In this document: in pieces, positions 543 through 30,661 of the stretch
Layout: every line of letters starts with the position of its first letter
How positions within the stretch are numbered: position 1 is the stretch's first letter
Assembly (NCBI GenBank): GCA_012032745.1
Contig: JAAUQQ010000008.1
Span: 1 to 33,451 of the forward strand
Length of the DNA: 33,451 nucleotides
DNA from: Synechococcales cyanobacterium RM1_1_8
GTDB taxonomy: Bacteria; Cyanobacteriota; Cyanobacteriia; PCC-9006; JAAUQQ01
Direction of reading: 5' to 3'
Position numbers and translations under genes: made by a program
The notes under the pieces: model-generated
What the model was told of the DNA's origin: nothing
Seen by the model: only the letters and a program-made list of their open reading frames with translations
Database searches by the model: none

Positions 543-989
543 TTGCCCTTCGATTGGGTCTTGGAAAACCGGCTGGCGATCGGGCCGCTGCCCCGCAAGG
601 GCTGGCTGCGCCTGCTGGAGCAACAGCAAATCAGGTCGATCATTTCCCTCTGTGCTGAATCGGAGGGCAAGCTGCCCCAGGAATTACACCACCGCTTTCG
701 CTGTGCCAGGGTCGTGTTGCCGGACAGCCACTCTGGGGAACCGCTTCGCCTGGCCGAGCTGTCGGAGGTGGTGGATTTGATCCATTGGAATCTGCAAAAG
801 CGCCAGCCTGTGTATTTGCACTGCCTGGCGGGCATCGAGCGATCGCCCCTGGTGGCGATCGCCTACCTCTGTCGGCACCAATCCATGGACCTGCTCGATG
901 CAGCGGGCTGGCTGTCCCATGTCCATCCCCCCAGCCGTCCCCTCACCGCCCAGCTCCAAGTGGTGCGGCAGTACTTACTGGAAGCTTGA
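543..989 (+). CDS. Dual-specificity / tyrosine phosphatase-like protein
   Basis: HCLAGIERS matches the HCxxGxxRS active-site loop (819-845). Start is uncertain: the first table-11 start is TTG at 543, but the frame is open back to 144. Confidence 0.75.
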   Translation: MPFDWVLENRLAIGPLPRKGWLRLLEQQQIRSIISLCAESEGKLPQELHHRFRCARVVLPDSHSGEPLRLAELSEVVDLIHWNLQKRQPVYLHCLAGIERSPLVAIAYLCRHQSMDLLDAAGWLSHVHPPSRPLTAQLQVVRQYLLEA

Positions 990-1005
990 ACGGTTTAACA
1001 TTGGC

Positions 1006-2531
1006 ATGAGCTCAGTCGCACGATCAGCTCCCACAGATCCCAATATTGGACGCATTCTCGACCAGCGCTACGAAATCATGGCACTGCTGGGGAAAGGTGG
1101 CATGGGACGGGTCTACCTGGGTCGCCACAGCACCCTGGGAGGGGCGATCGCCATCAAATTCCTCTCCCAGACATTGCTGAGTCCAAAGCGGCGAGATAAC
1201 TTTCTCAACGAAGCCAAAACCTGTTCCCAACTGGGCCAAGAAACCATTCACATCGTCCATGTTCACGACGTTGGCCTAGATGAGCGAGGCATTCCTTTCT
1301 ACGTGATGGAATATCTACCGGGCCAAAGCCTCAGCCAGATCTTGGGCCATGGCCCCTGCCCCTGCCCCGCTTTGTCAGCATCCTCAGCCAAATCTGCCAG
1401 GGTCTCAAGGTTGCCCACGGGGGCATCGTGGTCAACGGTCAGCGCTGCCCCGTGATTCACCGCGATATCAAGCCCAGCAACATCCTGGTCACCCCCGATG
1501 CCACCCTGGGCGAGCTGGCCAAAATTTTGGACTTTGGCATCGCCAAGCTGATCCAAGGCGAGACCAACCCGGAAGCGAGCTTCGAGGGCAGCTTCCCCTA
1601 CGCTGCCCCAGAGCAAATGGAAGGCTTGGAGCCCACCCCCCAGTCCGATATCTACAGTCTGGGCATTGTCATGTTCTGTTGCTTGACGGGGAAGCTGCCA
1701 ATTCGCGCAGCCTCGCCCACGTTCGGGGGCTGGTACAAAGCCCACTCCCAAACGCCCCCGGCCAGCATTCGCGAGGTTTCGCCCCGGCTCCAATTGCCCC
1801 AGAGTTTGACTGGCCTAATCCATAGCTGTCTGGAAAAGAAACCTGAACATCGTCCCGCCAACGTCACGGAAGTGCTCGCATGTCTAAAGTCGCTGGATCC
1901 CCATTGGGGCGAGCGTCAAGGCCCCTCGGTGTCCTTGCCAGGGGAGGCTGTGGCTCGACCTGAGCCAGTAAAGCCACCCAGCATCGATGAACTCTGCCGC
2001 AGTCAGATCTGGCCTCGGGACAAACCCCTGGCGCAGATTGTTTTTTCCCAGCAGATCGAGACCAGCGAAGGCCTCCACCCCACCCTGTGGACCATGTTGC
2101 CCCGCGCAGAAATCCAACAGCTTGCCCTCGCCAGTCTTTACACCCAGGTCTATCGCAACTTTCTCTGCGCCATGGCTCCGCACCCCATGCTGATGTGGGT
2201 GACCGCGCTGCACAGCCGCTTTTTCCGAGACGGCCAGGATGCCCGCTGGTTGCCCTGTTTTCTGGATCTGAAGTCCCCGCATGGCCAGCGCTTTATCCGG
2301 CGCTTGGCAGCCCAGGGAGAGTATCGGGTGCTGTTCTTTGCCCTGGAGGAGCCGGGGCGCTGTTCCCATGTATTGAAGACAACAATTCGAGCGGATCAGT
2401 GCAGTCGGCTGGGCCAATGGGCCATTGCCTCCCAAACTCAACTGAGCCTGGGTCAACCGATCCAAAGCAAAGAAATCCTTCGAAATGAGTTGAAACAGTT
2501 AAAGTCCCAAAACATATTTGCGTTAGATTGA
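1006..2531 (+). pseudogene. Serine/threonine protein kinase, interrupted by an apparent 1-nt deletion near 1353-1368 (or sequencing error)
   Basis: Frame 1 has GKGGMGRVYLG and AIKFL; frame 3 continues with HRDIKPSN and DFGIAKL. The frames join at CCCCTGCCCCTGCCCC. Confidence 0.85.
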
Positions 2532-7019: not shown

Positions 7020-7829
7020 ATGGGATCGCCTTCACCGGAGTTTCGTCCGCCGCCCCAAAACCTCGTCACCAGCATCCTGGCCCCTGCCCTGAAACTGTGG
7101 CTGCGCTCCCAGGTGAGCAGCGTGGACCAGTTGGAAATTGGGATCGGCAGCCAGGCCGAAGCGGGAGCCAGCCTCAGCAGTCGGCAGATGCTGGCGGGCC
7201 ACATTCCAGAGGTGCGGGTCATGGCCCAGGGCGCAATCTACCGGGGGTTACACCTCGGCCAGCTCAATCTCCAGGGGCAAAACATTCGGATGAATCTGGG
7301 CCAGGCCGTCCGGGGCAAGCCCCTGCGCCTGCTTGCTCCCATCGCCGTCAAGCTCAATCTCAGTCTCAGCCCAGCCCAGCTGAATGACTCCCTGCGCTCC
7401 CCGCTGCTGGCACCGCTGCTGGCCGATTGGCTCAGCCTGCTCCAGCACCAGCTCTGCTGTCCCGGCGCTGACCGCCTGGCTGGCCCTGGCTTGGCTGGCC
7501 TGGATCAGCGCCAACTGGATCACCCTCAATTGGAGCTTGGCCAGGGGCGTTTGAGACTACTGCTGCGATGGGTTGAGCCTGGTGGGGATGCTGGGAAAGA
7601 TCAGGTTCAGGGCAATTTGGTCCTGGACAGCGGGCTCAAGCTGGAGGGAGGGCGATCGCTCCTGCTCCACCAACCCCGCTGGCAGCAGCAGCCCCCTGCG
7701 GGGTTCAGGGCCGACCTCAGCCCGCTAGAAGCCGCTGTCATCAATCTAGGCGAAGAGATCCACCTGGAAGAATTAAGCATCACCCCGGAGCAGCTCAGAC
7801 TTCAGGGACAGCTCATGGTTCAGCCCTAA
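7020..7829 (+). CDS. DUF2993 (LmeA-like lipid-binding) family protein
   Basis: VDQLEIGIGSQAE...GHIPEVRVMAQGAIYRGLHLGQLNLQGQNIRMNLGQ is typical of cyanobacterial DUF2993 proteins. Confidence 0.75.
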   Translation: MGSPSPEFRPPPQNLVTSILAPALKLWLRSQVSSVDQLEIGIGSQAEAGASLSSRQMLAGHIPEVRVMAQGAIYRGLHLGQLNLQGQNIRMNLGQAVRGKPLRLLAPIAVKLNLSLSPAQLNDSLRSPLLAPLLADWLSLLQHQLCCPGADRLAGPGLAGLDQRQLDHPQLELGQGRLRLLLRWVEPGGDAGKDQVQGNLVLDSGLKLEGGRSLLLHQPRWQQQPPAGFRADLSPLEAAVINLGEEIHLEELSITPEQLRLQGQLMVQP

Positions 7830-8036
7830 TCCAGCTCCCCTGCTCCACCACCTGCTTTACCAATAGGCACCTGAGCCGAGGCTTTGTGCAGTTTTGCTGC
7901 ATTATTCGCGACTTTTGTGAAATCTCAGCGGGCTCACCCTTTCCAGGGACAAACTTGGGGCTAACTTGGGAAAGACCAAGGCTGATGCTGCAAGCTTTCC
8001 ACCTTTGCCATCCAGTCCCATTGGCGCTAATTGCTC

Positions 8037-10219
8037 ATGGAATGTGGCCCGTCCGCTTCAAACAATAATAATCCCTGGTTTCCATCCTCTTTAACCGATG
8101 CTGACTTTCGAGCCCTGTCCTTGGAAGCCGCCCAAACGCGTGCCCAGTCAGGTCATGGGGAATTGGGCTATGGAGGACTGGGCCATGGGTGGGGATTGGA
8201 TGGTCATGGTAAGGCTGATGGTAAAACGGGCGGCCAAGCGGATGGCTCGGCAAGCTGCCAGCCCAACTGCCAGCCCAACTGCCAGCTTAATTCAGCAGCC
8301 CTGGATACGGACCGAGATTTAGCCCAAGATCCGGCCCGAGAGCCCGCCCGCATCCATGATGCTCAATACAGCCAGGCTTTCTCCCATCGCACCAGAGTCC
8401 TGGCCGCTGGCCTGGAGTTGGCGATGGAAACGGCCCTGGAACAGGCGATTGTTTACCGCAATCTCTCCGTACCGGAGCTGGTGGAACATGCCCTGCTGCG
8501 GGCTGAAGGGGGCTTGAGCGATCGCGGTGCGCTCTGTGTGAAAACCTTGCCCTACAGCGGCATCACCCCCAGCAGTTACTACCGCGTTTGTCCGGGGCTG
8601 ACGGCTGGAGCTGGCGAGGATGGGGCTGATGAAGACCAAGCTGCCCAGGTCGCGGATCTGGCTGGGCAGGTGTGGGGAGGGGCCTTACAGCCCATGGACC
8701 CGGCGACCTTCGATGGGCTCTATGGCCGGGTGTTGGACTATATCCAGGATCGCAGCCTCTACCAGTGCGATGGTTCCCTAGGGGCATTGCTGGAGCAACC
8801 GGGTTCGCCTCCCCGGCTGCGGGTTGTTTGTGAACTCGCCTCCCAGGTGCTGATGGCTCGCCAGTGGCTGGGCCAGGCCGTTTCAGATCAGCCTGGCTCC
8901 AGTCACACAAGCCCTGATCCCGGCCAGCTTACGGTGATTGCGCTGCCGGGGTTGAAGGGGGAGCCGCTGCTGGAGCCGCTGATCCGAGCGGAGGTGTTTA
9001 TCGCTGTTGATGCTGCCAGGGGGCTGGCCCTGGTGGCGGGCAGTCGCCATGGGGGCGATCTGTGGGGGGCGATCGCGGCGCTCTGTGCAGAAGTCGCAGC
9101 AGCGCGGTCTGGGGATCTGTTGCTGTGGCAAAGGGCGATCGCGGCTCCCCTTGATCTACTGGCTCACCCGCCCCAAAGCCCAGCGCCCGCCGCCCTGTTT
9201 TTGGGTGCAGCGGGCAGCGGCAAGCAGCGACTCGCGGCCAGCCTCAGTCCCGATTGGCAGCGAGGGCCTTGGGTTTGGCGGAGTCAGGGGCAGATCCAAC
9301 CGCTGTTGCAGGGCAACTATGGCAGGATTTCCTCCCCGGAAGCCCAGCAGTCGGCCTATCCTCACCTGGGCTTTGGCGCGGTGTTGGAGAATGTGCCCTT
9401 GGAGGATTCCAGTAGCAATCCCAGTTTTGGCGATCGCCGCTGGGGCGGGGCCATGGCCGCCGCCTGGCCCTGCCCTCGGCCACCCAGCCCGTCCAGCCCC
9501 AGCTATCGCCCCCAGGCCATTTTCCTACTTGTTGCAGACACATCTGGTCTCTTCCCGCTGCTGGCCAAACTGAGCCCCGCCCAAGCGATTTACCTCGTCG
9601 CCCTGGGCTATGGCGCAGCCCTGCCCGGCTGGGAGCGTCACCTGCTCCAGCCCCAGATGCTGTTTGGCACGGCGGATCCCCAGCGCTGTCTGCGCGAGAG
9701 CTTGGGGCTGCGCGATCGCCTCCAAGCCTTTCCGGACACGGCACTCTATCTGCTCAATACCGGCTGGCTGGGAGAGATGCCGAGCCCAGGCCGCAGCCTG
9801 GATCAACGCATTCCCCTCTCCATTAGCCAGACTTTGGTCAAAAGCGGCCTTGGGGGGGGGCCATCCGTTGGAAGAAAGTTGCGGTAGAGACAGGTGCGGA
9901 TATAGGTGCGGAGACAGGTGCGGATATAGGTGCGGAGACAGGTGGGGAGACAAGCGCGAGAACTGGCCCAGCAGCGAGCTTAGGGATGCTCTTGAACTGG
10001 ACCATTCCCGCACCAGTGCTGCCCGAAGTCCGGCTATCGGAGGCAGGTCCCACCAGATCCCTCGATGGGTTGTTTGGCCAACACCCGGCCCAAGCCTGGT
10101 CTCAACCGGAACAATGGCACGCTGCCGCTGCCCAACTGGCCCAGGAATTTGACCGGCAAATGGCGTTTTTGGTGAGCGTTGGACTGCCCCCAGCGATCGC
10201 CCAACAGCAGCCCTTCTAG
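8037..10219 (+). pseudogene. Divergent ATP-type PEP carboxykinase-like protein, probably non-catalytic; frame break in G9 at 9852-9860
   Basis: AALFLGAAGSGKQRL, FGAVLENVPLED, AIFLLVADTSGLFPLLAKLSPAQAIYLVALGYGAALPGWER, ALYLLNTGWLGE; C-terminal LNWTIPAPVLPEV...QPEQWHAAAAQLAQEF is in frame 2 after 9860. Confidence 0.7.
9887..9958. repeat. Six 12-bp units (gagacaggtgcg / gatataggtgcg), forming a 24-bp higher-order repeat
   Basis: gagacaggtgcggatataggtgcg x2, then gagacaggtggg and gagacaagcgcg. Confidence 0.95.
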
Positions 10220-10776
10220 CCACGCCCTCCCCGGTCCTGGTTCATCAGCCTGGCCATCACCGCTGCCATATCCAACAAAAACAAAGACTGAAGCGCACCG
10301 TCTTCCCCCGAGTTGATACGCACAATATGGCTAGCCACCCAGAGCGTATCGGCCTGACGATAGGATTCGGGCAGCTCGCGGATCTGGCTGCTGTCCACCT
10401 CCAAAAGCAGCGGCGTTTCCGCTGTGGGAATGCCCATCAGTTCACCGCTGGGGGCTGGGGTCAGCACCAGATAGCCGGGGCGCTCGGGGGAATAGGCCTG
10501 GGCGGTGCCAAAGAGTTGCTGATGCAAATCGACAATGGTGAGTTCGCGGTTACCCACGGTGGTAATGCCCACCGCATTGAGGCCGCTGCTGTAGACCTTG
10601 GGTCGGTTAATCACCCGGCTGATGCTGTTCATGGCAACAGCCAAGCGCAGGCTGCCCACGGGGAAGGCAATCAGTTTGTGGCTGGCTGGGGAGGCTGGGG
10701 GTGCGATCGCTTTCCCCCCAGCCAAGGAGGGGTCGGATTGCTCGACTGGGGGAAGGCCAGGGGGGGAGGTTTGCAT
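10216..10776 (-). CDS. CheW-like protein
   Basis: HKLIAFPVGSLRLAVAMNSISRVINRPKV...GITTVGNRELTIVDLHQQLFG. Lies directly downstream of the CheA gene. Confidence 0.8.
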   Translation of the reverse strand: MQTSPPGLPPVEQSDPSLAGGKAIAPPASPASHKLIAFPVGSLRLAVAMNSISRVINRPKVYSSGLNAVGITTVGNRELTIVDLHQQLFGTAQAYSPERPGYLVLTPAPSGELMGIPTAETPLLLEVDSSQIRELPESYRQADTLWVASHIVRINSGEDGALQSLFLLDMAAVMARLMNQDRGGRG

Positions 10777-10790
10777 TGGATCTCTGGGGC

Positions 10791-10843
10791 TGGGTGGTGG
10801 GTGATGGGTGGTTGGCGATGGGTGGTGGGTGATGGGTGATGGG
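10791..10843. repeat. Low-complexity GGGTGATGGGTGGT repeat between the cheA-like and cheW-like genes
   Basis: tgggtggtgggtgatgggtggttggcgatgggtggtgggtgatgggtgatggg read directly. Confidence 0.9.
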
Positions 10844-10848
10844 AGGCT

Positions 10849-13800
10849 CTAGACTGGAGCAACCGTTGCCATCAGTTGCTCAATCGACTTCAAGAAGTCC
10901 TGCTCCACATAGGGCTTGCTGAAATAGTCGTGGGCCTTGAGTTGCATGGCCAAGCGGCGGTGCTTGTCGCTGCTGCGGGAGGTCAACATCACCACGGGAA
11001 CCTTCATCAATTGGGGCTCGCGGCGGCGCTGGCTGAGGAATTCGAAGCCATTCATATTGGGCATTTCCACATCGCAGATCACCAGTTGAATCGCGCTGTT
11101 CTGGCGGAGCTGGGTCAGGGCCTCCTGGCCATCGCCCGCCTGGAGCACGCGATAGCCAGCCTTCTCCAGGCTGAGGGCAATGGTGCGGCGCATGGCCGTG
11201 GAATCATCCACGACCAGGATCGTCTTGGCCTGCATGATCTCGCTGAAGGAGAGGTTGGAGCTGCCGCCGGAACTGGTTTCATAGGGATTCTCCTCGGCTT
11301 CATCCCTCAAACCAACAAAGAGTTCATCCGCCGCCTCCACCCCGGCCGCCACGGCGATGGACTGTTCGCTGAGCAACTTGAGTAGGGCTGTGCCATCCAG
11401 CACGGGGACCATGCGGCCATCGCCCAGGATGGTGCAGCCGTAGGAGTAGTCCGGAGGCGTGATCGCTGGGCTAAAGGGCTTGATTACCAGTTCTTGCTCC
11501 ATCAACAGGCGGTTGACCTCCATGGCACAGCGCTGGTTGCCCCGGCTGAAGATTAGCAGCGGCAAGGCCCAGTCCTGGGGCACCGGAATGCTTTTGGCGG
11601 TGATGCTTTTGAGCGCTGCCACATCGGGGGTCGGGCAGCGGTAGTCCAGCAGTTCAGCCATGGATTGGATGGAAATCAGGTCGTTGCGCCAGTGGAGACA
11701 GCGCTTGTGGCCCACCTGTTTGATTTGGCTGGCATCGGGCACCAGGAGATCTTCGATGCCATCGGAGGGTAGTGCGATCGCTGCCGAACCCACCTGGCAC
11801 ACCATCAGCTTGGCCACCGTCAGCGTCAGGGGCAGGCGCAGGGTAAAGGTCGTGCCCCGGCCCTTTTCATAGTCCACCGTGACGCTGCCCTTGAGGCCCT
11901 TGAGTTGCTCCCGCACCACATCCAAGCCCACACCCCGGCCCGACAGCTCGCTGAGCTGGGCTGCGGTCGAAAAGCCAGGCTCGAAAATCAAGTCCACCAG
12001 CGTTTGCTGGGGCAGCAATTTCAGCTCTTCGCGGGAGAGCCAGCCCAGGTCGATCGCCCGCTTAGCGATGCGCTCCAGGTTGATGCCCTCACCATCGTCT
12101 TGAATTTCAATAACGGTTTGGTTGCCCTGGTAGTAAGCATTGATCTGGATGGTGCCGCGCTCTGGCTTGCCCTGGGTAGTGCGCACCTCGGGCAGCTCAA
12201 TGCCGTGGTCGAAGGCATTGCGCAGCAGGTGCAGCATCGGGTCATGGAGCTTTTCCAAGATGCCCTTATCCACCAACACATGGGTGCCGTTCATCGTCAA
12301 GTCCACAGACTTTTTATGCTTGCGTGCCAGATCGCGCAGCATCCGAGGGAAGCGGCCTAAAATATTGTCCAAGGGCAGCATTCGAGCCCACATCAGCTCA
12401 TTTTGCAGCAGGCTGAGGCGCTGGCGCTGTTGGGTCAAACTCTGGGTGGATTGCTCCAGCAACACGCCGATGTCATCGACGCCTTCTTCAAGCTGGATGA
12501 GCTGTTCAAAAATTTCCTGGAGTTGGCCGTGGAGTGCCCCATAGCGATCCATTTCTAGGGCATCAAAGCCTTCCATGAAGTGGCTCTCATCCGGGGCGTT
12601 CGGCGATCTAGCGATCGCAGCCTGGGCTGGGGTTTGGCCTAGGCTGGGGTTGGAGGAAGTTGGCTGGCTAGCTGGACCGGCTGCTGGGCGGGTCGCTGGG
12701 CTAGCGGCGGCGGCTCGGGCTACCCCCTGGGCGCGCTGGGTCGGCTCCAGCAACATTTGATCCGAGACCTTGCGCAGGCCATTGACCTGACCATCAAACT
12801 CTTTAAAGCGCTTGGAGAGTTGTGTTACCACGGTTTGCAACTGCTCTTGCTGGAGCGAGAGGCTGTTGCGGTTGAGTACCAGCTCGCCGACGAGGTTGTT
12901 CATGCGCTCCAGCACGCTCAGGTCCACCCGCACCGAAATACCGGAAAGTTTGGCACCTGGACGCTTTTTCTTGGCTTTGGTGGTTTCTGCCTCCGCTTCG
13001 GGGTCAACGTCGCTGTTGCCGATATCGCCAGCCGGGGCGATCGCATTTTGGGGCGGCACCGGAGTCAGGGGAGAGCCAGGGCTTGGCAGTTGGCTAAACA
13101 TCTGCTCCACCGCCAAGACCGCTTGGTTAATGCTACCCCCTGGGCTTGCGGCCGAGGCTTGGTGTTCCGCCAGGGCGACCTGGACAGCGGTGTCGGTATC
13201 GGTGGCGGCTGCGGGGATCTCGGACTCGGGCTCGGGCTCTAGCTGCGGCTCGGGCTCCAGGTCGCGTTCTAGGGCGGACTCAGGAGCGGACCCAGGCTCT
13301 GGCGACTGGGGCTCGTTGAGTTCAGCCGTGAGGGAGTCTGTAGCGATCGCATCCACCTGCTCCGGCTGAAACGAAAACATGCTTTCCAAGCTGGGCAGGT
13401 TTTCTTCACCAGCCTGGTCTGGCGCAGCCTGGTCTAGCACCGAAACCTGTTCAGAGACTGCCCCCTGTTCGGGCTCTGGAACCTCTTCAGGCTCTGGAAC
13501 CTCTTCAGGCTTTGGCCATGGGGAAAGTAGCTGTTCTGGCAGCGGTTCCCCACGTTCCGTCTCCTTGACGTCATCCCAACCCCCAAAATCTAAATCATCC
13601 AGAGGCGCTGGAGCCATGGTTTCAGTCGTTTTAACGGAGCTAGGCGGTTGGTCACGCTTTGATGACTCTGCCGCTGCTTGGGCAATAAAGGCTTGAAGCT
13701 CAGGGTTGAGTGCTTCGATGCTGTCATTGGAGCGATCGCCCCCAGCTTGGGGTCCATCCTCCAAGGGCTGTGCCGCTGGTGCTTCGATCTCACCCCAGAT

Positions 13801-16242
13801 CAAATCGATGCTGTCTGGCTCGGGTTCGGAGGGTGCAGGGGCCTCTGGCTGGGCTGTTGACAGCTCGGCGGTTGGGGGCTCCACAGCCTCGGGCTCTGCC
13901 AGATCCTGAATGAACGTGCCCTGGTCCAGATCTTGAATGAAGGTGCCTTCATGGAAAGATTCCGTCGGGCCTGAACCATCCAGACCTGCAATATCCGGAC
14001 CTTCAATATCCGTGACCCCTTGGATGAAGGTGCCCTGGGAAAAATCTTGAACATAGGTGCCTTCGGGGAAGGATTCCTCGGGGTCGGAGGCTGGATCGGC
14101 TGGGACCGTCGCGACCGATTCGACCAGTTCGGCTGGGGTGGAGCAATCTGCCGCAACGGCTGGGTCGGCGATCGCCCAATCCTCGATGGCCGGGGGCGCG
14201 ATCGCCGATTCAGCTTCCACTGTTGCTTCGGCCAGGCTCTCCCAGGGATCCAGTAGGGCTTCCGACTCCAGCAGCGCAGCAGTCTGATCTACAACTGGGC
14301 TGGCTGGCTGGTCTAGGGCTGTCTGCTCTGAGGCTGGCTGCTCCGGGACAGCCTCCAGCGACACAGCAACATCAACTGCATTCAGGGCCGCTTCGAACAG
14401 CGCTTCATCGGCGGCATCGGCGGCCAGGTTCTCTGCGCCCAATTCACCCATGGGCACCACCCCAGGCTCATGGCTGAATTCCGCCATGAAGCCTAAAATC
14501 TCAGCTTCGGTCTGGTCTGCCAAGTCACTGGAGATCTCAGACGAGGCCTCAGATGACACCGGAGGCAATTCCTCAGGCGCGACATTGGCCAAGGCATCGG
14601 CGAAGGCTCCAGTTAAGGCATCGGTCGCATCATCCGCGCAGGCATCGGACCAAACCTCCTCGCCCGCTTCGGTGACAGCAGCATCTGCACCGCTGCTGAT
14701 CGAGCGATCGCCGATGTCGCTGAGATCGCTATTGTCGATCAAGCTGTTGTAGATAGAACTGTCGTCGGTGTCGCCAATGTCGCCGATATCGCCGATATCA
14801 CTGATAAAGCGATCACCCACAGCCTCCTGACTAGCGGCCTTCGCCATGGCCTTCGCCATCGTATCGTCAGCAACTTCCGCCAGTTCATCCTCTGCTTCAG
14901 CAAAGGCCGCGAAGGCATTGTCGCTACCCAGCCAATCCGCTCCAGAAACCGGCTCCAGCTCCTCCCCCCCAAGCGCTGCTGGACTCGGGTCAGCCATGAG
15001 ACTGGCCAACTGAGCCATGGCATCCAGGTTGTGGGAAGCATTGAGGGAATCGCGATCGCCCCCAGCAGCATCACCCAGCCCAGCATCACCCAGCCCAGCA
15101 TCACCCCACTCATCCAGGCTCAGATCTGGACCCTCTGAGACGGAACTCAGCTCCGCTCCAGCCTCCCGATTTAGGCTCGCTTCATTCAGGCTCGCTTCAT
15201 TTAGGCCCGTCTCCATCAGCTCAGCCCAGCCCAGCTCATCGAGCTCCCCAAAGCTGCTATCTGCCAGGGCATCCTCTGCTTTGCCCAGATCGTCACTGGA
15301 ATTTTCACCCAGATCGCCCCCCAAAACGCCACCCAGGTCAAAACCGACCAAGTCCGCTTCACTGAGACCAAAATCGGCCAAATCATCGCGACTTAAGCCC
15401 GAGAAATCCAGCGGTGCAGGCATCATGTTTGCTGCTGCTTCGCCCGCGCTGCCCGTCGCTGCCAAAGCCAGCAGGGCTTCGGAAGGGCGGCCTCCTTGAT
15501 CGCGATCGCCCCCCATGACCAAATCCCGCGCAGCTTGCAGATCCACCAGGGAAACTTGCAGCAGCTCCATGGCCCGATCCGGGTTGTTCTGGCAACCCTC
15601 CAACATCGCCTGGGCGATCGCCCCAAACCCCGGCAGCTCCAGCAGCTCCCCAAAGCCCAAGAAAACCTCCGCCTGGGCTTGGAGTTCACCCAGCACCGGA
15701 AAATTTTCAGGGTTGGCCGCCACTTCCTCCAGGCGAGCAATGCCCTCCTCCACGTCAATCTCAAAAATCGAGATCACCATATCGATACCCAGGTCAGAAG
15801 AACTGGGCATAAAGCTATCGGCCAATTTGAGGGCTTCGGGGCCGAGCTTGGCTTCAATCGCATCCAGGATGGGAAAGGCCTGCTCCAGGGCCGCTTCGGC
15901 ATCGTGGCGACCCGTCTCGATCTGCTCGTTCAGCGGCTCTTTGAGGCAGTCATAGCCATCGAGCAGCAATCCCTCCAACTCATCGTCAATCACGACCGTT
16001 TCATCGTAAAGCGCCCGGAAGGCAGTCTCCAGACGGTGGGCGATGGTTTTGATCGACTCTAGCTCCACGCTGGCCGCCCCACCTTTGATCGAGTGGGCTG
16101 CCCGCATGACCGCATGGACGGTGTTGGCTCCCCGATCTTTGCGCAGCTCCAGAATGCCATCCTCAATGATTTGGAGCAGTTCAATGGCCTCTTCAATGAA
16201 GAATTGATAGGCCTTGTCATGGATATCAGGATTGACAGACAT
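10849..16242 (-). CDS. Hybrid CheA histidine kinase (HPt - long disordered linker - dimerisation - HATPase - CheW - REC), PilL/PixL/HmpE type
   Basis: AAHSIKGGAASVE HPt, HLLRNAFDHGIE N-box, EIQDDGEGIN, FSTAAQLSELSGRGVGLDVV, C-terminal TILVVDDSTAMRR...VICDVEMPNMNG receiver. Confidence 0.95.
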   Translation of the reverse strand: MSVNPDIHDKAYQFFIEEAIELLQIIEDGILELRKDRGANTVHAVMRAAHSIKGGAASVELESIKTIAHRLETAFRALYDETVVIDDELEGLLLDGYDCLKEPLNEQIETGRHDAEAALEQAFPILDAIEAKLGPEALKLADSFMPSSSDLGIDMVISIFEIDVEEGIARLEEVAANPENFPVLGELQAQAEVFLGFGELLELPGFGAIAQAMLEGCQNNPDRAMELLQVSLVDLQAARDLVMGGDRDQGGRPSEALLALAATGSAGEAAANMMPAPLDFSGLSRDDLADFGLSEADLVGFDLGGVLGGDLGENSSDDLGKAEDALADSSFGELDELGWAELMETGLNEASLNEASLNREAGAELSSVSEGPDLSLDEWGDAGLGDAGLGDAAGGDRDSLNASHNLDAMAQLASLMADPSPAALGGEELEPVSGADWLGSDNAFAAFAEAEDELAEVADDTMAKAMAKAASQEAVGDRFISDIGDIGDIGDTDDSSIYNSLIDNSDLSDIGDRSISSGADAAVTEAGEEVWSDACADDATDALTGAFADALANVAPEELPPVSSEASSEISSDLADQTEAEILGFMAEFSHEPGVVPMGELGAENLAADAADEALFEAALNAVDVAVSLEAVPEQPASEQTALDQPASPVVDQTAALLESEALLDPWESLAEATVEAESAIAPPAIEDWAIADPAVAADCSTPAELVESVATVPADPASDPEESFPEGTYVQDFSQGTFIQGVTDIEGPDIAGLDGSGPTESFHEGTFIQDLDQGTFIQDLAEPEAVEPPTAELSTAQPEAPAPSEPEPDSIDLIWGEIEAPAAQPLEDGPQAGGDRSNDSIEALNPELQAFIAQAAAESSKRDQPPSSVKTTETMAPAPLDDLDFGGWDDVKETERGEPLPEQLLSPWPKPEEVPEPEEVPEPEQGAVSEQVSVLDQAAPDQAGEENLPSLESMFSFQPEQVDAIATDSLTAELNEPQSPEPGSAPESALERDLEPEPQLEPEPESEIPAAATDTDTAVQVALAEHQASAASPGGSINQAVLAVEQMFSQLPSPGSPLTPVPPQNAIAPAGDIGNSDVDPEAEAETTKAKKKRPGAKLSGISVRVDLSVLERMNNLVGELVLNRNSLSLQQEQLQTVVTQLSKRFKEFDGQVNGLRKVSDQMLLEPTQRAQGVARAAAASPATRPAAGPASQPTSSNPSLGQTPAQAAIARSPNAPDESHFMEGFDALEMDRYGALHGQLQEIFEQLIQLEEGVDDIGVLLEQSTQSLTQQRQRLSLLQNELMWARMLPLDNILGRFPRMLRDLARKHKKSVDLTMNGTHVLVDKGILEKLHDPMLHLLRNAFDHGIELPEVRTTQGKPERGTIQINAYYQGNQTVIEIQDDGEGINLERIAKRAIDLGWLSREELKLLPQQTLVDLIFEPGFSTAAQLSELSGRGVGLDVVREQLKGLKGSVTVDYEKGRGTTFTLRLPLTLTVAKLMVCQVGSAAIALPSDGIEDLLVPDASQIKQVGHKRCLHWRNDLISIQSMAELLDYRCPTPDVAALKSITAKSIPVPQDWALPLLIFSRGNQRCAMEVNRLLMEQELVIKPFSPAITPPDYSYGCTILGDGRMVPVLDGTALLKLLSEQSIAVAAGVEAADELFVGLRDEAEENPYETSSGGSSNLSFSEIMQAKTILVVDDSTAMRRTIALSLEKAGYRVLQAGDGQEALTQLRQNSAIQLVICDVEMPNMNGFEFLSQRRREPQLMKVPVVMLTSRSSDKHRRLAMQLKAHDYFSKPYVEQDFLKSIEQLMATVAPV
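13903..14082. repeat. Duplicated coding block within the CheA linker (ESFxEGTFIQDxxQGTFIQ)
   Basis: Encodes ESFPEGTYVQDFSQGTFIQG and ESFHEGTFIQDLDQGTFIQD; four G-T-F/Y-I/V-Q units in total. Confidence 0.9.
15059..15216. repeat. Short in-frame tandem repeats in the CheA linker (GDAGL; LNEAS)
   Basis: Encodes GDAGLGDAGLGDAAGG and GLNEASLNEASLNREAG; DNA copies cccagcatcacccagcccagcatca and ttcaggctcgcttca. Confidence 0.9.
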
Positions 16243-16346
16243 AGTTGCGAAGCCTTGAGAGATCGAAAGGTAAGGGAAAGGGGACGGGGGAAATCAAACC
16301 GAATGCTGCCAATCCAAAGGCTGGGGTATGACTGTTGCCTGGAGCG

Positions 16347-16410
16347 GCACCTAGCTGGGCTAGAACCTAGCTGGGCTGGAACCTAGCTGGGCTGGAACCT
16401 AGCTGACCTT
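16347..16410. repeat. 16-bp tandem repeat x4 (gaacctagctgggctg) overlapping the stop codon of the second MCP gene
   Basis: gcacctagctgggcta, gaacctagctgggctg x2, gaacctagctgacctt. Confidence 0.95.
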
Positions 16411-19400
16411 GAACTGGGCCACCTCGGCTTGGAGGGCCTGGGAGACCTCTAGCAATCGTTTGAACGATTCGGAGACCTGGCTGGCTTCATCGGAGGTGGC
16501 CCGCACTAGCTGGGCCACTTCTGCGATCGTCGTGGCCGTCTCGGCAGAGGCTTGGGTTTGGAATTCGGTGGTTTGGGCGATCGCCGCCACCAGCTCATTC
16601 ACCTCCCCACTGGCCGCTGTGATCTGGGTGAGGCTGGCGCGGGTGTCTTCCACTAGCTGCATTTGCTGGGCCACTTGGTGGGTCTCCACTTCCATGGCTG
16701 CAATCACATCCTGGGTCGCCATCTGGATGGTGTTGATCACCGTTTCCACATCCGCCGTGGCCTGGGCAGATTGGGCGGCCAGGCTACGAACTTCATCGGC
16801 AATTACCGCGAAGCCTTCCCCCTGATCCCCCGCCCGCGCCGCTTCGATCGATGCCTTCATGGCCAACATGTGGGTCTGGGCTGCGAAGCCGCTAATGAGG
16901 CGAATCACATTGGAAATTCGCTGGGAGGCCGCTTCCAAACCCTGCATTTTCTGGGTCGTTTCCGACACGGTTTCCCGAATGGTGGCCATGCCTTCCACGG
17001 TGCGGCCCATGGCCTGTTCCCCAGCGGAGACCGTGGCCTGGGTGGCATCGACCCTGGACTGGGCTTCCAAGGCTTGGGCTGAGAGGGTCTGGACGGAGCG
17101 GATCATCCGGTCGAGGTTGGCCAGGGAGCCGGTGATTTGATTGGCCTGGCTGAGGGCATCCTGGGCCAGCTTTTGCACGGCCACATCGTTGACTTGAGCG
17201 GTATCGGTCACCTGGGTCGCCACAGTTTTGACCTGGCCAACAATGCGGCGCAGGCTCTCGATCGTCGCGTTGTAGGAGTCCGCCACGGTGCCGATTTCAT
17301 CGGAGGTGACGCGGGCACTGACGGTCAGGTCTCCCTGGGAGACGGGATCCACCGCTTGGAGCAGCTCTAGGGCTCGCTGTTGCAGGATTTCCTTGTCCTG
17401 GCGAATGGTTTCCTCAGCCTCGCGCTGTTGCTCTAGCAGGGTGACGTAGCCCACGGCTGCCGCAACGCGATCGGCCAGGGCACCCATGAATTTGACGGTG
17501 GCTTGATCCCAGGATCGGGTGTCTGCGCAACTGTGGGCCACCAGCAGGCCGTAGAGGGCACCGCCGCTGACCATGGGGGCGATGATGCTGGCTTTGACCT
17601 TGAGGGTGGCCAGGAGTTCGAGGTGGCGATCGCTCAATCCAGCCCGACTGACATCGGGGTTGACCTGGATCTCACCCTGGCGGTATTGCTCCAGGCGCTC
17701 CAGGGGAATGCAATCATCGCTGATGCCCAATTCAATCGTGGAAGGCCAGCGGGACAGGCGCGCTTCATAGAGCACGCGACCGTTTTCGGCGGTGGAGCCA
17801 CAGCGGTAGACCACCAGGCGATCGAGCTTCAGCCGTTGGCGCGTGGTTTCGAGGATCTGAGTCATCCCATCGCCCATGCTGTGGCTGTCGAGGGAGCGCA
17901 GGTTGGCCACTTCACTGAGGATGTTGTTTTGCCAGAGGGCGGTCTGGAGAAACTGTTCGTTGCACTCCAGGTTGGTGGCCAAGTGGTTCATGTTGCGGGA
18001 GAGCTGGCCGATCTCATCCTGGCGATCGCTATCCGCCAGGCGCAGGCCGCGATCGCCCCGGCCCAACCGTCCCATCAGCTCTGCCAGGCGCTGGAGGGGC
18101 TGGACCAAGGAACCCGCCGCAGGCAAGGCCAGCAAAGTGGAGAGCAAAATCGTTGCCCCCCCCAAGCCATAGGCCAGCAGTTGCTGGCTCCAAAAACGGG
18201 CTTCCACGGCCTGGAGGGATTGACCCAGGTAGGTCATGCCCACCACGGGCTGGGCATCGCCCGCTCCATCCGCCGCTGGGCCAGCGCTGGAGCTGCCAGA
18301 AAGAGAGCTGCCATAGATCGGACTGTAATAATTGAGGTAGCTGTGGCCATCGCGCTGGGTGACTTCGAGGTGGGATTTGCCCTGCTCAAACACGCTTTCT
18401 AGGGTTTTTGCAGAAACAGCCGCCTGGGTTTGGCGACCCCCCTTGCCATCGCCATCGGTGGAGAGGATTAGCTGATTGCCATCGAACACCCCGGCGCTGG
18501 AAATGCCGTAGCGCAGTTTGAAGACATCGGCCAGGATGCTGTTGTTGTTGAGCACTTGGCCGACAATCACGGCCCCCCGCGTGCTGCCATTCACCAGCAC
18601 AGGGCTAATGGACAGGGCGGTCAACGTCCGGCCCTCGCGAGCCACGGTGCTGTCGCCCTGCTGGAGCTGGGGGGCGAGCCCCAGGACTTGAGTCATTTCC
18701 CTGGAGAGGCGCTCAATGCCCGCAGCAGGGATGCCATTGGAAAGTACTTTCTGCACCAGGGGCAGGCTGCGCAGATCCTGGTTGAGGGGAGCCTGGACGG
18801 GCAGCATCTGCACGGCTTCCAGGGCCTGGTCGAGGTCGGCGGGAACGGCGGGGTCAGCCTGGAGCAGGCGGATATCCTGGGCGATGCTGCGCCCTTTGAG
18901 ATCGATGACGATTTGGAAATTCATCGCCGTTTCTGGATCGGCAAAGGGATCCAGGGCGATGTAGTTGTTGAGGGGCGCGCGATCGCTCTCGGGATCACTG
19001 GGATCGATGCCGCTGGCCTGGACCAGCCGGGCCAGGTTGGCAGAACGGCTACTGGCATCGGTCTGGGCCCAGAGGACATATTCATCGCGGAAGGCACTGC
19101 CCTGTTGCAGGGCAAACTCCTTCGCATCGACAATGGCCCGGTTTTTGTTGAGGGCAACCAGGCTCTGGGTCACGGCCACCGTCGGGACCGTGGCGCTCAC
19201 CACCATCAGCAGGGCAAATTTATTGCGCAGGCTGAGGTTGGACCAATATTGATTCAGGCGCTGGCGGCGATCGCCCGCCGTTCCAGCAGCCGTTCCAGCA
19301 GCAGGCCCAGGCCCGGATCTCCCCGCCAGGGTTGGGGCAGCGGTTTGCATCCGCGATCGCAAGCGTTTCGAGGCCGTCGCCGAGTAATATTTCAGCTCCG

Positions 19401-19524
19401 TGATTTCAAGTTCAACCGGAGCCTGGCTCGCCTTAGCGGCTGGGGAAGCGGGCGATCGCGGTGACAGCATCGCCTCCTGCTCGGGCGGAATGGGCTGGGG
19501 GATAGGCTGGGGAATCTGGGTCAT
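16399..19524 (-). CDS. Methyl-accepting chemotaxis protein (TM - sensor - TM - HAMP - GAF - MA), PilJ/PixJ type
   Basis: Two hydrophobic segments, HAMP-like PLQRLAELMGRLGRGD, GAF with AGLSDRHLELLATLKVKASIIAPM, hairpin tip [19 protein letters not shown]. Confidence 0.93.
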   Translation of the reverse strand: MTQIPQPIPQPIPPEQEAMLSPRSPASPAAKASQAPVELEITELKYYSATASKRLRSRMQTAAPTLAGRSGPGPAAGTAAGTAGDRRQRLNQYWSNLSLRNKFALLMVVSATVPTVAVTQSLVALNKNRAIVDAKEFALQQGSAFRDEYVLWAQTDASSRSANLARLVQASGIDPSDPESDRAPLNNYIALDPFADPETAMNFQIVIDLKGRSIAQDIRLLQADPAVPADLDQALEAVQMLPVQAPLNQDLRSLPLVQKVLSNGIPAAGIERLSREMTQVLGLAPQLQQGDSTVAREGRTLTALSISPVLVNGSTRGAVIVGQVLNNNSILADVFKLRYGISSAGVFDGNQLILSTDGDGKGGRQTQAAVSAKTLESVFEQGKSHLEVTQRDGHSYLNYYSPIYGSSLSGSSSAGPAADGAGDAQPVVGMTYLGQSLQAVEARFWSQQLLAYGLGGATILLSTLLALPAAGSLVQPLQRLAELMGRLGRGDRGLRLADSDRQDEIGQLSRNMNHLATNLECNEQFLQTALWQNNILSEVANLRSLDSHSMGDGMTQILETTRQRLKLDRLVVYRCGSTAENGRVLYEARLSRWPSTIELGISDDCIPLERLEQYRQGEIQVNPDVSRAGLSDRHLELLATLKVKASIIAPMVSGGALYGLLVAHSCADTRSWDQATVKFMGALADRVAAAVGYVTLLEQQREAEETIRQDKEILQQRALELLQAVDPVSQGDLTVSARVTSDEIGTVADSYNATIESLRRIVGQVKTVATQVTDTAQVNDVAVQKLAQDALSQANQITGSLANLDRMIRSVQTLSAQALEAQSRVDATQATVSAGEQAMGRTVEGMATIRETVSETTQKMQGLEAASQRISNVIRLISGFAAQTHMLAMKASIEAARAGDQGEGFAVIADEVRSLAAQSAQATADVETVINTIQMATQDVIAAMEVETHQVAQQMQLVEDTRASLTQITAASGEVNELVAAIAQTTEFQTQASAETATTIAEVAQLVRATSDEASQVSESFKRLLEVSQALQAEVAQFKVS

Positions 19525-19656
19525 GGGGATTACTCACGCGCGGCGGCAACAGCAACGAATAACAGGGGCAGAGAATAGCGTGAAAAAACGGCGTAAACAA
19601 AACAGCGTCAAGGCGGTTTGAATCGGGGGACTTGACGGCGAGGCGGGGGCGATCGC

Positions 19657-22600
19657 CTACTGGAGCTTGAACTGGCCCACGCTGGCTTCCAAGCTTTGGG
19701 CAACCATCACCAGGGCTTCCAAGGAAGCAGAGACCTGATCCGCCGAGCTGGAGGTTTGGTTGGCAATCCCAGCCACGTCCCCCATGGCCATGGAGACCTG
19801 CTCCGATGCCGCTGTCTGCTGGTGAGTTGCCTGGGCGATTCCAGCTACCAAGACGCTGATCTCCTCACTCACCTGGGCAATTTGAGTCAGGTTTTGCCGC
19901 GCCACTTCCACCATCTGAGTACCGACCACCACCTGAGCTGTACCCGATTCCATGGCAGCGGACACCTGGTTGGTCTCCGATTGAATCTCAGCTACCAGGG
20001 CCTCAATTTCTGCCGTGGCCTGGGCTGACTGACGGGCCAGGGAGCGCACCTCATCGGCCACCACCGCAAAGCCTCGGCCCTCTTCTCCAGCGTGGGCCGC
20101 CTCAATGGAAGCGTTGAGGGCCAGCAAGTTGGTCTGTTCCGCAAAGGAGCTAATCAGGTTGACCACCTTGGAAATCTTCTGGGACGATTCACCCAGGCGC
20201 TTCACCTTCTTGGCGGCTTCGCCCACGGTTTCACGAATGGCAAAGATGCCTTCCACGGTCTTGTCCATGGCATCATCCCCCTGGCGCACGGTGTCCGCCG
20301 CTTTCTGTACCGCCATCTCCGCCTGGGCAGCGTTGGTTGACACCTGGCGAATCGAGTTCACCATCTGTTCAATGCTGCCCAGGGCTTCGCCGATTTCGAG
20401 GTTTTGGCGCGAAGCACCGGAGGCCAGATTCTGCACAGCCTCGCCGCTGCCCGAAGCGGTCATCACCACCTGGAGCACGGTTTCTTGCACTTGGGAGACA
20501 ATGCGGCGCAGGCTCTCAATCGTGGCATTGTAGGAGTCAGCCACCGTGCCGATTTCATCCTCCGTCACCTTGGCGCGAATGGTCAGGTCGCCTCGGCTGA
20601 CGGGATCCACTTCCATCAGCAACTGCATGACGCGGCGCTGAAGTTCTTCGATGCGTTGCTTCTCCTGTTGGACATTCAACTCTGCTTGACCCCGAGCGGC
20701 TTCCACCTGCTGGATTTGCTGGACGATCGCCCACTGGGCTGCAATTTGCTGGATGAAATTGATGTCGCCTTCATCCCAATCCTTCTCCTGGCCGCAGGTT
20801 TGGGCCACCAGCAGGCCGGTCATTTGCCGGTGCTCCACCAGGGGCACCACCACCTCGGATTGGACCGCTAGCTCCTGAAGTAGGGTTGCATAGCCATCGG
20901 GCAAGTCTGCCTGGGAGACCGCTGAAATCGCCACCGGTTCTCCCTGCTGAAACGAGCGCAGGAACTCAGGCTCCAAGGACATCTGGCCCAGGTCCAAGCT
21001 CGCTGCCGAGGGCCAATCTTCCCCAACTGACTCCTGGGCTACCCCCAGGCGATCGCCGCCCTCCAGGCCCCGCTCCAGGCTGTAGACCACCACCCGATCC
21101 ACCCCGAGGAATTCGCGGGCTTGGTGTACGGCCTGGGCCAGGCGCTGGTCCAGCTCTTCTGGGCTCAAACCATCGGCATCAATCGCCAAGTTGGTCAGCC
21201 AACTGGCACGCTGGGCCATGGCATCCCGCTGGGCATTAAAGCGCTGGAGCTGGTCCGCCATCTGATTGAGGTTGTCGGCCAAAATCGCCAGCTCATCCTC
21301 ACCTTTCACCGGCAGACGCGCCGCCAAGTCGCCCCGGCCAATGCGTTTCACCGCATCCACCGCCTGGAGCAGCGGACGCACAGCACGGGTGGCAAGCAAG
21401 CCTGCCACCAAGGCCAGGAGACCACCGGAGATCAGGGCTTGGAAAATCAGGCCCTGGAGCAAGCGCTGGCGTTCACTCGCCAACACCTGGCTGTCGATCG
21501 TCACCACGGTTTTCCAGCCCAGCTCGGGCAAATCTGCCCGGAACCGATCGCTCCATTGGGTAAAAGGAGCGTAGCCCACCGCCTGGCCTAGCGTGGTGAA
21601 GCCAAAGCTGCGGGATGCATCTTGGCTGCTTCCCGTGGCCTGGCCCCGGCTATTTTTGCCCGCTTCCCCCTTCTCCAGGGGCAGCCTGTTGGCGATCGCA
21701 GGCCCAGCAGGTTGCAGGGCTTCAAGGCTGGCAATGCTATCTGCAAACAGCTCATTGCTCTGGTCGTAGAGGCGATATTCCACCGCACCGCCCTGTTTGG
21801 CAGACTCCTGTTGGGCTGTGGCCTGGAGCAAGGCTTCCATTTCCTGCACCGGAATCCGAGCCCGAACGACGCCCACCGTCTGGCCCGTGGCGCGATCTTT
21901 GATCGGAGCCGCCAAATAAACACTGAAAATGCCGGAACTCTTAGAGATCAGCGGCTGGCTAATGACTGGACCATCCTGGGCCAGGGCCGCTTGGAAATAG
22001 CTGCGATCGCTGTGGTTGCCAATGGTTTCGCCACCGGAGTTGCCCAGGGGCTCACCGTTGAGATCAAAAACCGCAACGCTGTTGTAGATCGAATAGGAAT
22101 CAACAAACCGATCCAGAACCTCCTGGCGCTGCTGAACCGTGGCGCTGCCGCGCCGATCCCCATCGGTAAACAGCTCCTCGCGGGCCATCACCTGAATATC
22201 CCCAAAGCGCTCCCGCATGAACAGGGAGAGCTGGTCATTCATTGCCGAGGCGCTCAGCTCCGCCGCCGTTTCCAAGCGACCGGTGAGGGCTTCATTTTGC
22301 AGACCATAGTCAATCATCCCCAGGGCCGACGCAGGCAGAATGCCCAACACCGCCGCGATCGCCACTACCTTGCTGCGCAGGGGGAGCTTCTCCCATCTGC
22401 CCCCCTGGCGATAGCTCATCTGCTTGGCCTGCAAGCGCTGGGCCCGAGCCGCATCAGCCTGGCCTCGGAAAACCAGCTTGGGCTCCTCCAACATCTCCAT
22501 GCTATTGAGTTGTGGCGGCATCAATCCGAAGCCAGGCAGCTCCGCAGGCTCACCAGCGGCTCCAGCAGCAGGCTCCCCCGAAGCGCCAGTCGTCCGGAGC

Positions 22601-22674
22601 TGGCCTTCTGCATCACCAGCAATCTGGGCATCAAGGTCCTGGGTGTTGGGGTTGGAAGGCACAGTCTGAGACAT
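19657..22674 (-). CDS. Methyl-accepting chemotaxis protein (TM - Cache-like - TM - HAMP - GAF - MA), PilJ/PixJ type
   Basis: Extracytoplasmic [36 protein letters not shown] (Cache-like), [29 protein letters not shown], tip [21 protein letters not shown]. Confidence 0.93.
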
Positions 22675-22777
22675 GGGGAAACAGTCCTTAGTTCAATGGG
22701 AGGAGATTCAGAAAACAGGGGGCGAAGCAGACCTATGATGAAATGGAGAGCCGATGGAAAAGGCCCGGAGCGGTGGG

Positions 22778-23326
22778 CTATTTGGCAATCATGGAAAAAA
22801 TCGCACCTGGGTCCAGACAGCCCTGGAGGTGCCCCTGGCCAGTGAGGGTATAGCCTGTGAAATAGGGTGCCAATTCAGGGCTGGCAATGTGGGGAGAGGG
22901 TGGACGGATCTGATCCAGGGAAATCACTTCGATGTCTTGGACTTGGCTCACAATCAACCCCAGCTTCAGTTCCCCTTCCTCATCCTTGCCCCTGCCATCG
23001 TGGTTGCGCATCACCAGCGCATTGTGGCTCGAAAAATTACGGCTTTGCTGATACCAGGGAGTCAGCCCCAAAAGATGGCCCAAATCCACCATCCACAGCG
23101 CCTCGCCACGCCAGTTATGCACCCCCATGACCCAGGCATTCATCATGGGAATGGGCGTCACCTGCTGGGGAGGAATCGTCAGCACTTCGGTCAAGTATTG
23201 AACCGGCAACATAACAGTCATGTTGGGCTCTAGGTAACAGCTCAAAAAACGTTCTCCCTGGGGAGCAGCGCTGGTCTCGGCGGAGGGGATGAGCCCGTTG
23301 GATTCAGCAAGGACGTTCAGGGACAT
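22778..23326 (-). CDS. CheW-like adaptor (PilI/PixI type)
   Basis: MLPVQYLTEVLTIPPQQVTPIPMMNAWVMGVHNWRGEALWMVDLGHLLG. ATG at 23326 preferred; the ORF is open to 23557. Confidence 0.85.
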   Translation of the reverse strand: MSLNVLAESNGLIPSAETSAAPQGERFLSCYLEPNMTVMLPVQYLTEVLTIPPQQVTPIPMMNAWVMGVHNWRGEALWMVDLGHLLGLTPWYQQSRNFSSHNALVMRNHDGRGKDEEGELKLGLIVSQVQDIEVISLDQIRPPSPHIASPELAPYFTGYTLTGQGHLQGCLDPGAIFSMIAK

Positions 23327-23690
23327 GATCTCGATTCCTCTGGCGGAGGGCATGGCACAATTCTCAAAAGTTTGAGGAATTGAGGGGGAACAGGGGGCAG
23401 GGTCAGGAGAGTTGAGCTGGGATGCTAATAGGGGAAAACTCGTAAACTTTGGCCAATTCTGGGGGAAATAGTCCGAGGGGGTTCTATCGGTTTTAGACAG
23501 CGGTGGGGGCGATCGCCAGGGGGTGAACCCCTGGGCGAAGGCAGGGCCTGAAGCCATCTATTGCCTGAGCTTAGAATTCCCGCCTAATTCTTTGGATTAA
23601 CAGATAAGGCCTTGGCTTTCCCAATTCCTGTGGTTTTACGCAGGCGATCGTCTGATCCAATCAGGTTTTTGAGTACCTCTTTTTCGATAC

Positions 23691-23731
23691 AAAAAACGCA
23701 CCTCCGATGGATTAGCCATCAAAAGTGCGCT
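23691..23731 (-). terminator. Rho-independent terminator downstream of the CheY gene
   Basis: Minus strand agcgcac-ttttgatgg-ctaat-ccatcggag-gtgcgt followed by a T run. Confidence 0.7.
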
Positions 23732-23837
23732 CTAAAAAAATATTATTATGGGCCACTCAAAGCGAGGTTTGACCTAGGGGCTAGTCCCCAAAATAATTCA
23801 GAAGAACCGTGCTGGATTGAATTCTATTGGCTAAAAT

Positions 23838-24206
23838 CTACTTGCCAATCAGCCCCTGAACGGTGCGAATGAATTCACTTTGATCAATGGGCTTAGACAA
23901 ATAGGCATCAGCCCCTTGCTTCATCCCCCAAAACTTATCCATATCGCTGCCCTTGGTGGAGCACATCAACACAGGGATGCCTCGGGTTTTGCTCTCCGAT
24001 TTGAGGGCTCTGCAAAGCTCAAAGCCACTCTTTCCGGGTAAAACAACATCTAAAATAATAATGTCAGGCGATGGAAAGCTGTCGAGCTTCTCCAGGGCCT
24101 CTTCACTGCTCTTCACCAACAACACCTGAACACCACTCTGTTGTAGGCAGCTCGAAAAGATTTCAGCTTCAGTGAGAGAATCCTCAACAATTAGTGCAGT
24201 ACTCAT
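23838..24206 (-). CDS. CheY-like response regulator (PilH/PixH type)
   Basis: ALIVEDSLTEAEIF, IIILDVVLPGKSGFELCRALK, VLMCSTKG, AYLSKPID. Confidence 0.92.
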   Translation of the reverse strand: MSTALIVEDSLTEAEIFSSCLQQSGVQVLLVKSSEEALEKLDSFPSPDIIILDVVLPGKSGFELCRALKSESKTRGIPVLMCSTKGSDMDKFWGMKQGADAYLSKPIDQSEFIRTVQGLIGK

Positions 24207-24351
24207 GGAATTAGCCTCGGAAGATTAGGGGATGGAAAAGGGGGAGAAAAACTCACGAGCGCATGGGGCTCACCGGGGTCAACGTGAGGTCGAATCACGA
24301 CCGGGACATTGCTAGGCTGTCACAACTAGCGCCACAGTCTGACTCGCAGAA

Positions 24352-30479: not shown

Positions 30480-30644
30480 CTAGGTGTCTTGCCCAGAACT
30501 TAACTTGGGAGGAGGCAAGCCTTGGGGAGGAGGTAAGCCTTGGGGAAGATTGCCCTGAGCAGCTCCCAGGAGAGGCATTGCGCTAGGATTAACCCCCAGG
30601 ATCCCTATCTGCTCGGAGATGTTTGTGGATTCGAACAAATGCAC
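30480..30644 (-). other. Candidate small proline-rich ORF, 54 aa, GTG start
   Basis: MHLFESTNISEQIGILGVNPSAMPLLGAAQGNLPQGLPPPQGLPPPKLSSGQDT*; below the ORF-track length cutoff; no clear Shine-Dalgarno seen. Confidence 0.3.
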
Positions 30645-30661
30645 CCCGTTTGAGCGTCGCC

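Follow-up and report, generated by a model that had tools for sequence, protein, structure and literature searches.

A probable pseudoenzyme derived from ATP-dependent PEP carboxykinase in a family of cyanobacteria

A gene on the forward strand at positions 8037-10219 of a contig from Synechococcales cyanobacterium RM1_1_8 (33,451 nucleotides, the whole of which was analysed and is called the window here) probably encodes a retained pseudoenzyme, derived from the native cyanobacterial ATP-dependent PEP carboxykinase (PEPCK) and working as a non-catalytic binding platform. From the comparisons below we consider it very likely that catalysis was lost while the gene stayed under selection, and put the chance that the product serves as a scaffold or regulator at about even. 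PEPCK is a textbook enzyme of central metabolism, and its active-site residues were almost invariant in a published survey (PMC2684135).

The window belongs to a draft assembly (G000; 4.78 Mb in 486 contigs), and the set of genomes for the cyanobacterial order comprised six: G000, G070 and G081 of the window's genus, G010 and G045 of a sister genus, and G059. The two relatives in the window's genus and one member of the sister genus are named as uncultured Pseudanabaenaceae cyanobacterium, the other sister-genus member being Synechococcales cyanobacterium CRU_2_2. Every member of the family comes from a draft genome, the six being 62-93% complete.

Homology to ATP-dependent PEPCK

The main frame (8037..9887, + strand), which matches all of the homologues, encodes 616 amino acids (8037-9884) up to an in-frame stop at 9885-9887, and the C-terminal tail remains open in another frame as far as a stop at 10217-10219. 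The sole Pfam match of the window protein was PEPCK_ATP (PF01293; E=1.1e-38 over residues 139-603, 133.6 bits, the cut-off being 26.5), and a search of its own genome put the domain at 8451..9845 (+), covering profile positions 3-434 of 465 (E=2e-38). The closest solved structure was Thermus PEPCK 1j3b (E=1e-32, residues 139-608). These matches are well past chance and place the gene in the ATP-dependent PEPCK homology family, in agreement with the initial annotation, which had aligned much of the length with ATP-type PEPCK by eye.

A predicted structure of the intact G070 orthologue (AlphaFold, pLDDT 71.5, pTM 0.72) had ATP-PEPCKs as its best Foldseek matches, including Thermus PEPCK 1xkv (E=1.9e-39, TM 0.81 on the target), a likeness which is not independent of sequence homology as canonical PEPCKs were included in the alignment used for the model. 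When only the five family sequences were supplied, the model could not be used (pLDDT 36.6), and so the claim of a PEPCK fold rests mainly on homology.

Ahead of the domain lies an N-terminal extension (8037..8450, +), delimited by alignment and by comparison with the N-termini of canonical PEPCKs, which contains a stretch that both genera conserve ([FY]xA[LF]Sxx[VA]Ax[AT]RA) and a linker carrying short repeats (CQPNCQPNCQLN, window 8240-8300) that the intact relatives do not have. A reading of the N-terminal helix as an amphipathic targeting peptide was dropped, the hydrophobic moments being low (0.06-0.23).

Loss of active-site residues

The sequence survey of PCKs defines the catalytic site by a PCK-specific KK, a kinase-1a P-loop and a kinase-2 DD, the last of these being conserved across all the PCKs examined there (PMC2684135). 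All three motifs are disrupted or lost in the window's family. Conservation was scored on the family's copies aligned with 43 canonical PEPCKs and the E. coli enzyme, leaving out G059, which has a C-terminal fragment only; of 169 columns that are at least 90% conserved, 60 were lost in every aligned copy of the family and 43 were kept in all. Among those lost throughout (E. coli numbering) are Y207, K212, K213, H232, T255, D269, E270, H271 and N331, and thus catalytic residues are absent from all of the orthologues that were aligned.

In the window itself the replacements are R65 to I, Y207 to H, K212 to W, K213 to G, H232 to A, T255 to Q, T256 to R, D269 to W and R333 to A, with K254 kept. 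Alignment with Thermus and other canonical PEPCKs places the equivalent of TGRSP at 8556..8570 (+), where it reads SGITP and the substrate Arg65 is lost. The PCK-specific YAGExKK motif corresponds to SRHGGDLWG (9042..9068, +), in which the Tyr and both Lys have gone, and the P-loop survives as a remnant, GAAGSGKQ (9204..9227, +), where the Lys is kept and the next Thr has become Gln, so that GxxGTGKT is incomplete. Window D268 does align as Asp, but the stretch around it is unconserved (P, S, R or T in relatives), and hence no aligned copy has a kinase-2 GDD with D269 or a conserved D268; the metal-binding His232 is likewise absent from all of them. The gutted active site and the non-catalytic or repurposed role that had been suggested from the window alone are thus supported by the profile match and by residue losses across the clade, and the same goes for the loss of the DDEHGW metal motif, which extends to every aligned copy, and of the ENTR Arg, which is Ala in the window.

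Other losses differ between the two genera. Members of the window's genus (G000, G070 and G081) retain the P-loop glycines, Lys254 and Arg449, with Ile or Thr in place of Arg65, whereas in the sister genus (G010 and G045) Arg65 is retained and the whole P-loop has gone, including Lys254 and Thr255. The earlier proposals that the P-loop Lys-Thr-Thr and the substrate Arg had disappeared were therefore right in part: the Thr is lost everywhere but the Lys and GxxGSGK persist in the window's genus, and Arg65 is lost from the window but survives in its sister genus. Residues missing consistently among the homologues are the Lys pair, the His, Thr255 and Asp269. Because what remains of the active site is not the same in the two genera, there is no canonical ATP or PEP site common to the family, and so, judging from the residues, the shared function of the family would need no canonical nucleotide or substrate site.

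The retained GxxGSGK could be taken to mean that PEPCK chemistry was lost but that the protein retains some other enzymatic or nucleotide-switch function, binding nucleotide, and putting it to another use, in the window's genus, where the P-loop glycines, Lys254 and Arg449 are all kept. We regard this as improbable, as the Thr after the Lys is Gln, the GDD and the KK have gone, and the lack of the whole P-loop in the sister genus means that such a function would be possible in one genus only. A non-catalytic binding platform, which we favour, is suggested instead since there is no ligand site shared across the family.

Origin, distribution and selection

A search with a profile of the divergent proteins found the gene in all six genomes of the order, the G059 copy being a C-terminus at a contig end and the G045 copy being divided over two contig ends, while in three relatives the frame is unbroken, at 704, 699 and 636 amino acids. 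No canonical PEPCK was found in the six genomes, leaving the divergent gene as the sole PEPCK homologue there; such an absence is uncertain for any one genome, given their completeness, but is unlikely to have arisen by chance in all six. PF01293 matches were present in 36 of 390 cyanobacterial genomes, so most have no PEPCK. Canonical cyanobacterial PEPCKs score about 540-750 bits against this profile, and the divergent kind is confined among the 390 genomes to the window's own family; four weak matches elsewhere in the cyanobacteria, with E-values of roughly 1e-4 to 1e-3, fell under the cut-off.

As no other PEPCK homologue was found in the six genomes, the protein might be thought to be a working PEP carboxykinase with unusual residues. 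This is very improbable indeed, as every aligned copy has lost the whole set of metal, His, Lys, Thr and Asp ligands, and the NCBIfam PEPCK models score the window protein well under their cut-offs (84 against 590 bits for pckA). Doing without a PEPCK is also the usual state among the 390 genomes, and the window's genome does have PEPC and PPDK-type domains.

In a tree of 54 proteins the divergent sequences formed one clade (support 99/97) nested within the cyanobacterial PEPCK clade (100/100). The stem of the divergent clade measures 2.1 changes per site and the genus branches 3.8-4.5, where the median end branch is 0.33. The most plausible reading is that native cyanobacterial PEPCK gave rise to these sequences once and that they have evolved fast, and nesting at 100/100 gives them a catalytic ancestor, although we are unsure of the exact point at which so long a branch attaches. 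A canonical PEPCK from a contig labelled uncultured Clostridia bacterium (L048, FIZI01000001.1) also fell inside the cyanobacterial clade, through either gene transfer or misassignment of the contig.

Pairwise counts gave dN/dS values of 0.19 for G070/G081 (dS 0.97) and 0.24 for G010/G045 (dS 1.67), with most other, deeper pairs saturated at synonymous sites and their values indicative only; the neighbouring lmeA and cheW genes gave 0.11-0.26 where measurable. The low dN/dS, the intact frames and the presence in six of six genomes indicate a gene that is maintained by purifying selection, the window copy itself being frame-changed.

A conserved element upstream of the gene

Upstream of the gene, at 7884..7903 (+), lies a conserved 20 bp element, TTGTGCAGTTTTGCTGCATT, with arms TGCAG/CTGCA, which occurs at one site in front of the gene in each of five genomes (G000, G070, G081, G010 and G045) and so in both genera. 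It starts about 140-330 bp before the start codon and always has the same orientation; the copies are exact in G000, G010 and G045, with one mismatch in G070 and two in G081. A search of these five genomes with the core, allowing up to three mismatches, found the expected place in each and one extra site (three mismatches, in G000), and matches in 285 further genomes outside the family were confined to scattered sites that differ at one or two positions. The upstream regions share strings of 15-22 bases even beyond the closest pairs, compared to a maximum of 9-12 after shuffling. No copy of the element turned up close to canonical PEPCK genes, and an Rfam search of the upstream region returned no RNA family.

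The gene preceding the element varies by genus. It encodes an LmeA-like phospholipid-binding protein in the window's genus only (7020..7829, +; PF11209, E=1.9e-21; also L031 and L032) and a divergent prolyl oligopeptidase in the sister genus, and since the upstream gene differs the element follows the PEPCK-like gene. It may control expression of this gene, and as a guess the TGCAG/CTGCA arms could suit a dimeric regulator.

A frame change near the 3' end

The reading frame of the window copy changes at a run of nine G (9852..9860, +) which is missing from the intact relatives, and the C-terminal tail continues in the other frame (9861..10219, +), being homologous to the relatives' intact C-termini from about 9977 at 43% identity. 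What had been taken for one feature over 8037-10219 is thus the same protein throughout, but with its tail in a second frame. Tandem repeats (ETGADIGAETGAD) that the intact relatives do not have occupy window 9886-9970 of this tail.

The frame change raises the question of whether the window copy is a decaying pseudogene, in which catalysis was lost as the gene died and the G-run is another lesion; the in-frame stop does cut off the last part of the protein, and the clade sits at the end of a very long branch. We nevertheless think decay unlikely, as relatives carry frames of the lengths given above, the least saturated pairs give dN/dS values of 0.19-0.24, the tail still resembles an intact C-terminus, and the gene and its upstream element persist together in both genera. 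Moreover, in the same assembly PEPC (G000:C310) and PPDK_N (G000:C302) are likewise divided between frames, as is a serine/threonine kinase gene in the window (898-2531), which points to sequence errors, and for this reason the frame change at the G-run is probably an assembly error. A small gene for a dual-specificity phosphatase-like protein (window 543-989) lies directly before the split kinase gene; a gene for an FG-GAP repeat protein (window 28971-30295) is also split over two frames. In G045, the two overlapping contig ends disagree by small insertions and deletions within the PEPCK-like gene. Small indel errors seem to be numerous in the G000 draft, and other apparently frameshifted genes there deserve distrust as a result.

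The adjoining chemotaxis locus

The initial annotation had described the gene as convergent with a chemotaxis locus, and this is borne out by a CheW-like gene on the opposite strand (10216..10776, -; PF01584), a neighbour in most relatives, which overlaps the 3' end by a few bases such that the stop codons overlap. Next to it is a gene for a CheA-type hybrid kinase (10849..16242, -) with Hpt, HATPase_c, CheW and Response_reg domains. The locus as a whole (window 10216-25569) encodes CheW, the CheA hybrid kinase of about 1800 amino acids, two GAF-containing MCPs, a further CheW, CheY and a DUF4388 (PatA-like) response regulator. Elsewhere in the window (30623-31588) is an inward-rectifier potassium channel homologue (IRK_C, E=1.2e-26).

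CheA-CheW genes were near the PEPCK-like gene in five of the six genomes and always tail-to-tail with it, adjoining it in G000, G081, G059 and G045 and separated from it by one transporter gene in G010, which would fit an accessory part of the adjacent chemotaxis or phototaxis system. Conservation of the neighbourhood therefore held in most genomes but not in G070, where a gene for a SNF2-type helicase adjoins instead of CheW. Two convergent genes do not share a promoter for a common transcript, and their closeness thus offers no more than a hint of function; the PEPCK-like gene is not in the same operon as cheW, a Pfam search of the protein found no chemotaxis or signalling domain, and the common position may be mere inheritance. 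A role as a dedicated taxis component is for these reasons doubtful, and under the binding platform that we prefer the neighbouring chemotaxis system would be one candidate partner.

Proposed history and significance

We propose that the ancestor was an ordinary ATP-dependent PEP carboxykinase of cyanobacteria, from which the metal-binding and phosphoryl-transfer residues (the Lys pair of the KK, the catalytic His, the Thr of the P-loop and Asp269 of kinase-2) would, most simply, have been lost once, in the common ancestor of the family, with the two genera afterwards losing different parts of what remained of the active site. The present product would act as a folded binding platform (a scaffold, an adaptor or a regulator of a partner protein) and not as an enzyme or a nucleotide switch.

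The family resembles ATP-dependent PckA of the cyanobacterial clade (PF01293, EC 4.1.1.49) in homology over the whole domain, in predicted fold and in its nested position, but differs from it in having no KK, kinase-2 GDD, catalytic His or P-loop Thr, in its lineage-specific N-terminus and in a branch several times longer than those of canonical members. HPr kinase/phosphorylase is a P-loop kinase of PEPCK fold, which shares the P-loop half of that fold; the window protein, by contrast, aligns with the full length of PEPCK, N-terminal domain included, and drew no HPrK match from Pfam. With pseudoenzymes such as the pseudokinases, or dead paralogues like the trypanosome AdoMetDC prozyme (PMC5201418), it shares the loss of catalytic residues in a protein that is conserved and selected. 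Genomes of the window's family differ from the prozyme case in that no active canonical paralogue, which the protein might regulate, was detected in them. A search of the open-access literature found no description of a PEPCK-fold pseudoenzyme. It is conceivable, and we offer it tentatively, that in this one cyanobacterial order a PEPCK-fold protein has been given over entirely to regulation or scaffolding without catalysis, served by a cis-regulatory element of its own and possibly acting in taxis, and that it may be the first PEPCK-fold pseudoenzyme to be described.

For annotation there is a warning, as a profile would name such genes pckA and so imply a gluconeogenic route that is absent. 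A lineage which keeps the PEPCK fold without its catalytic centre would be a clean case of conversion from enzyme to non-enzyme, with steps that can be ordered, the shared losses coming first and the genus-specific losses later, and with a defined clade in which the new function may be sought.
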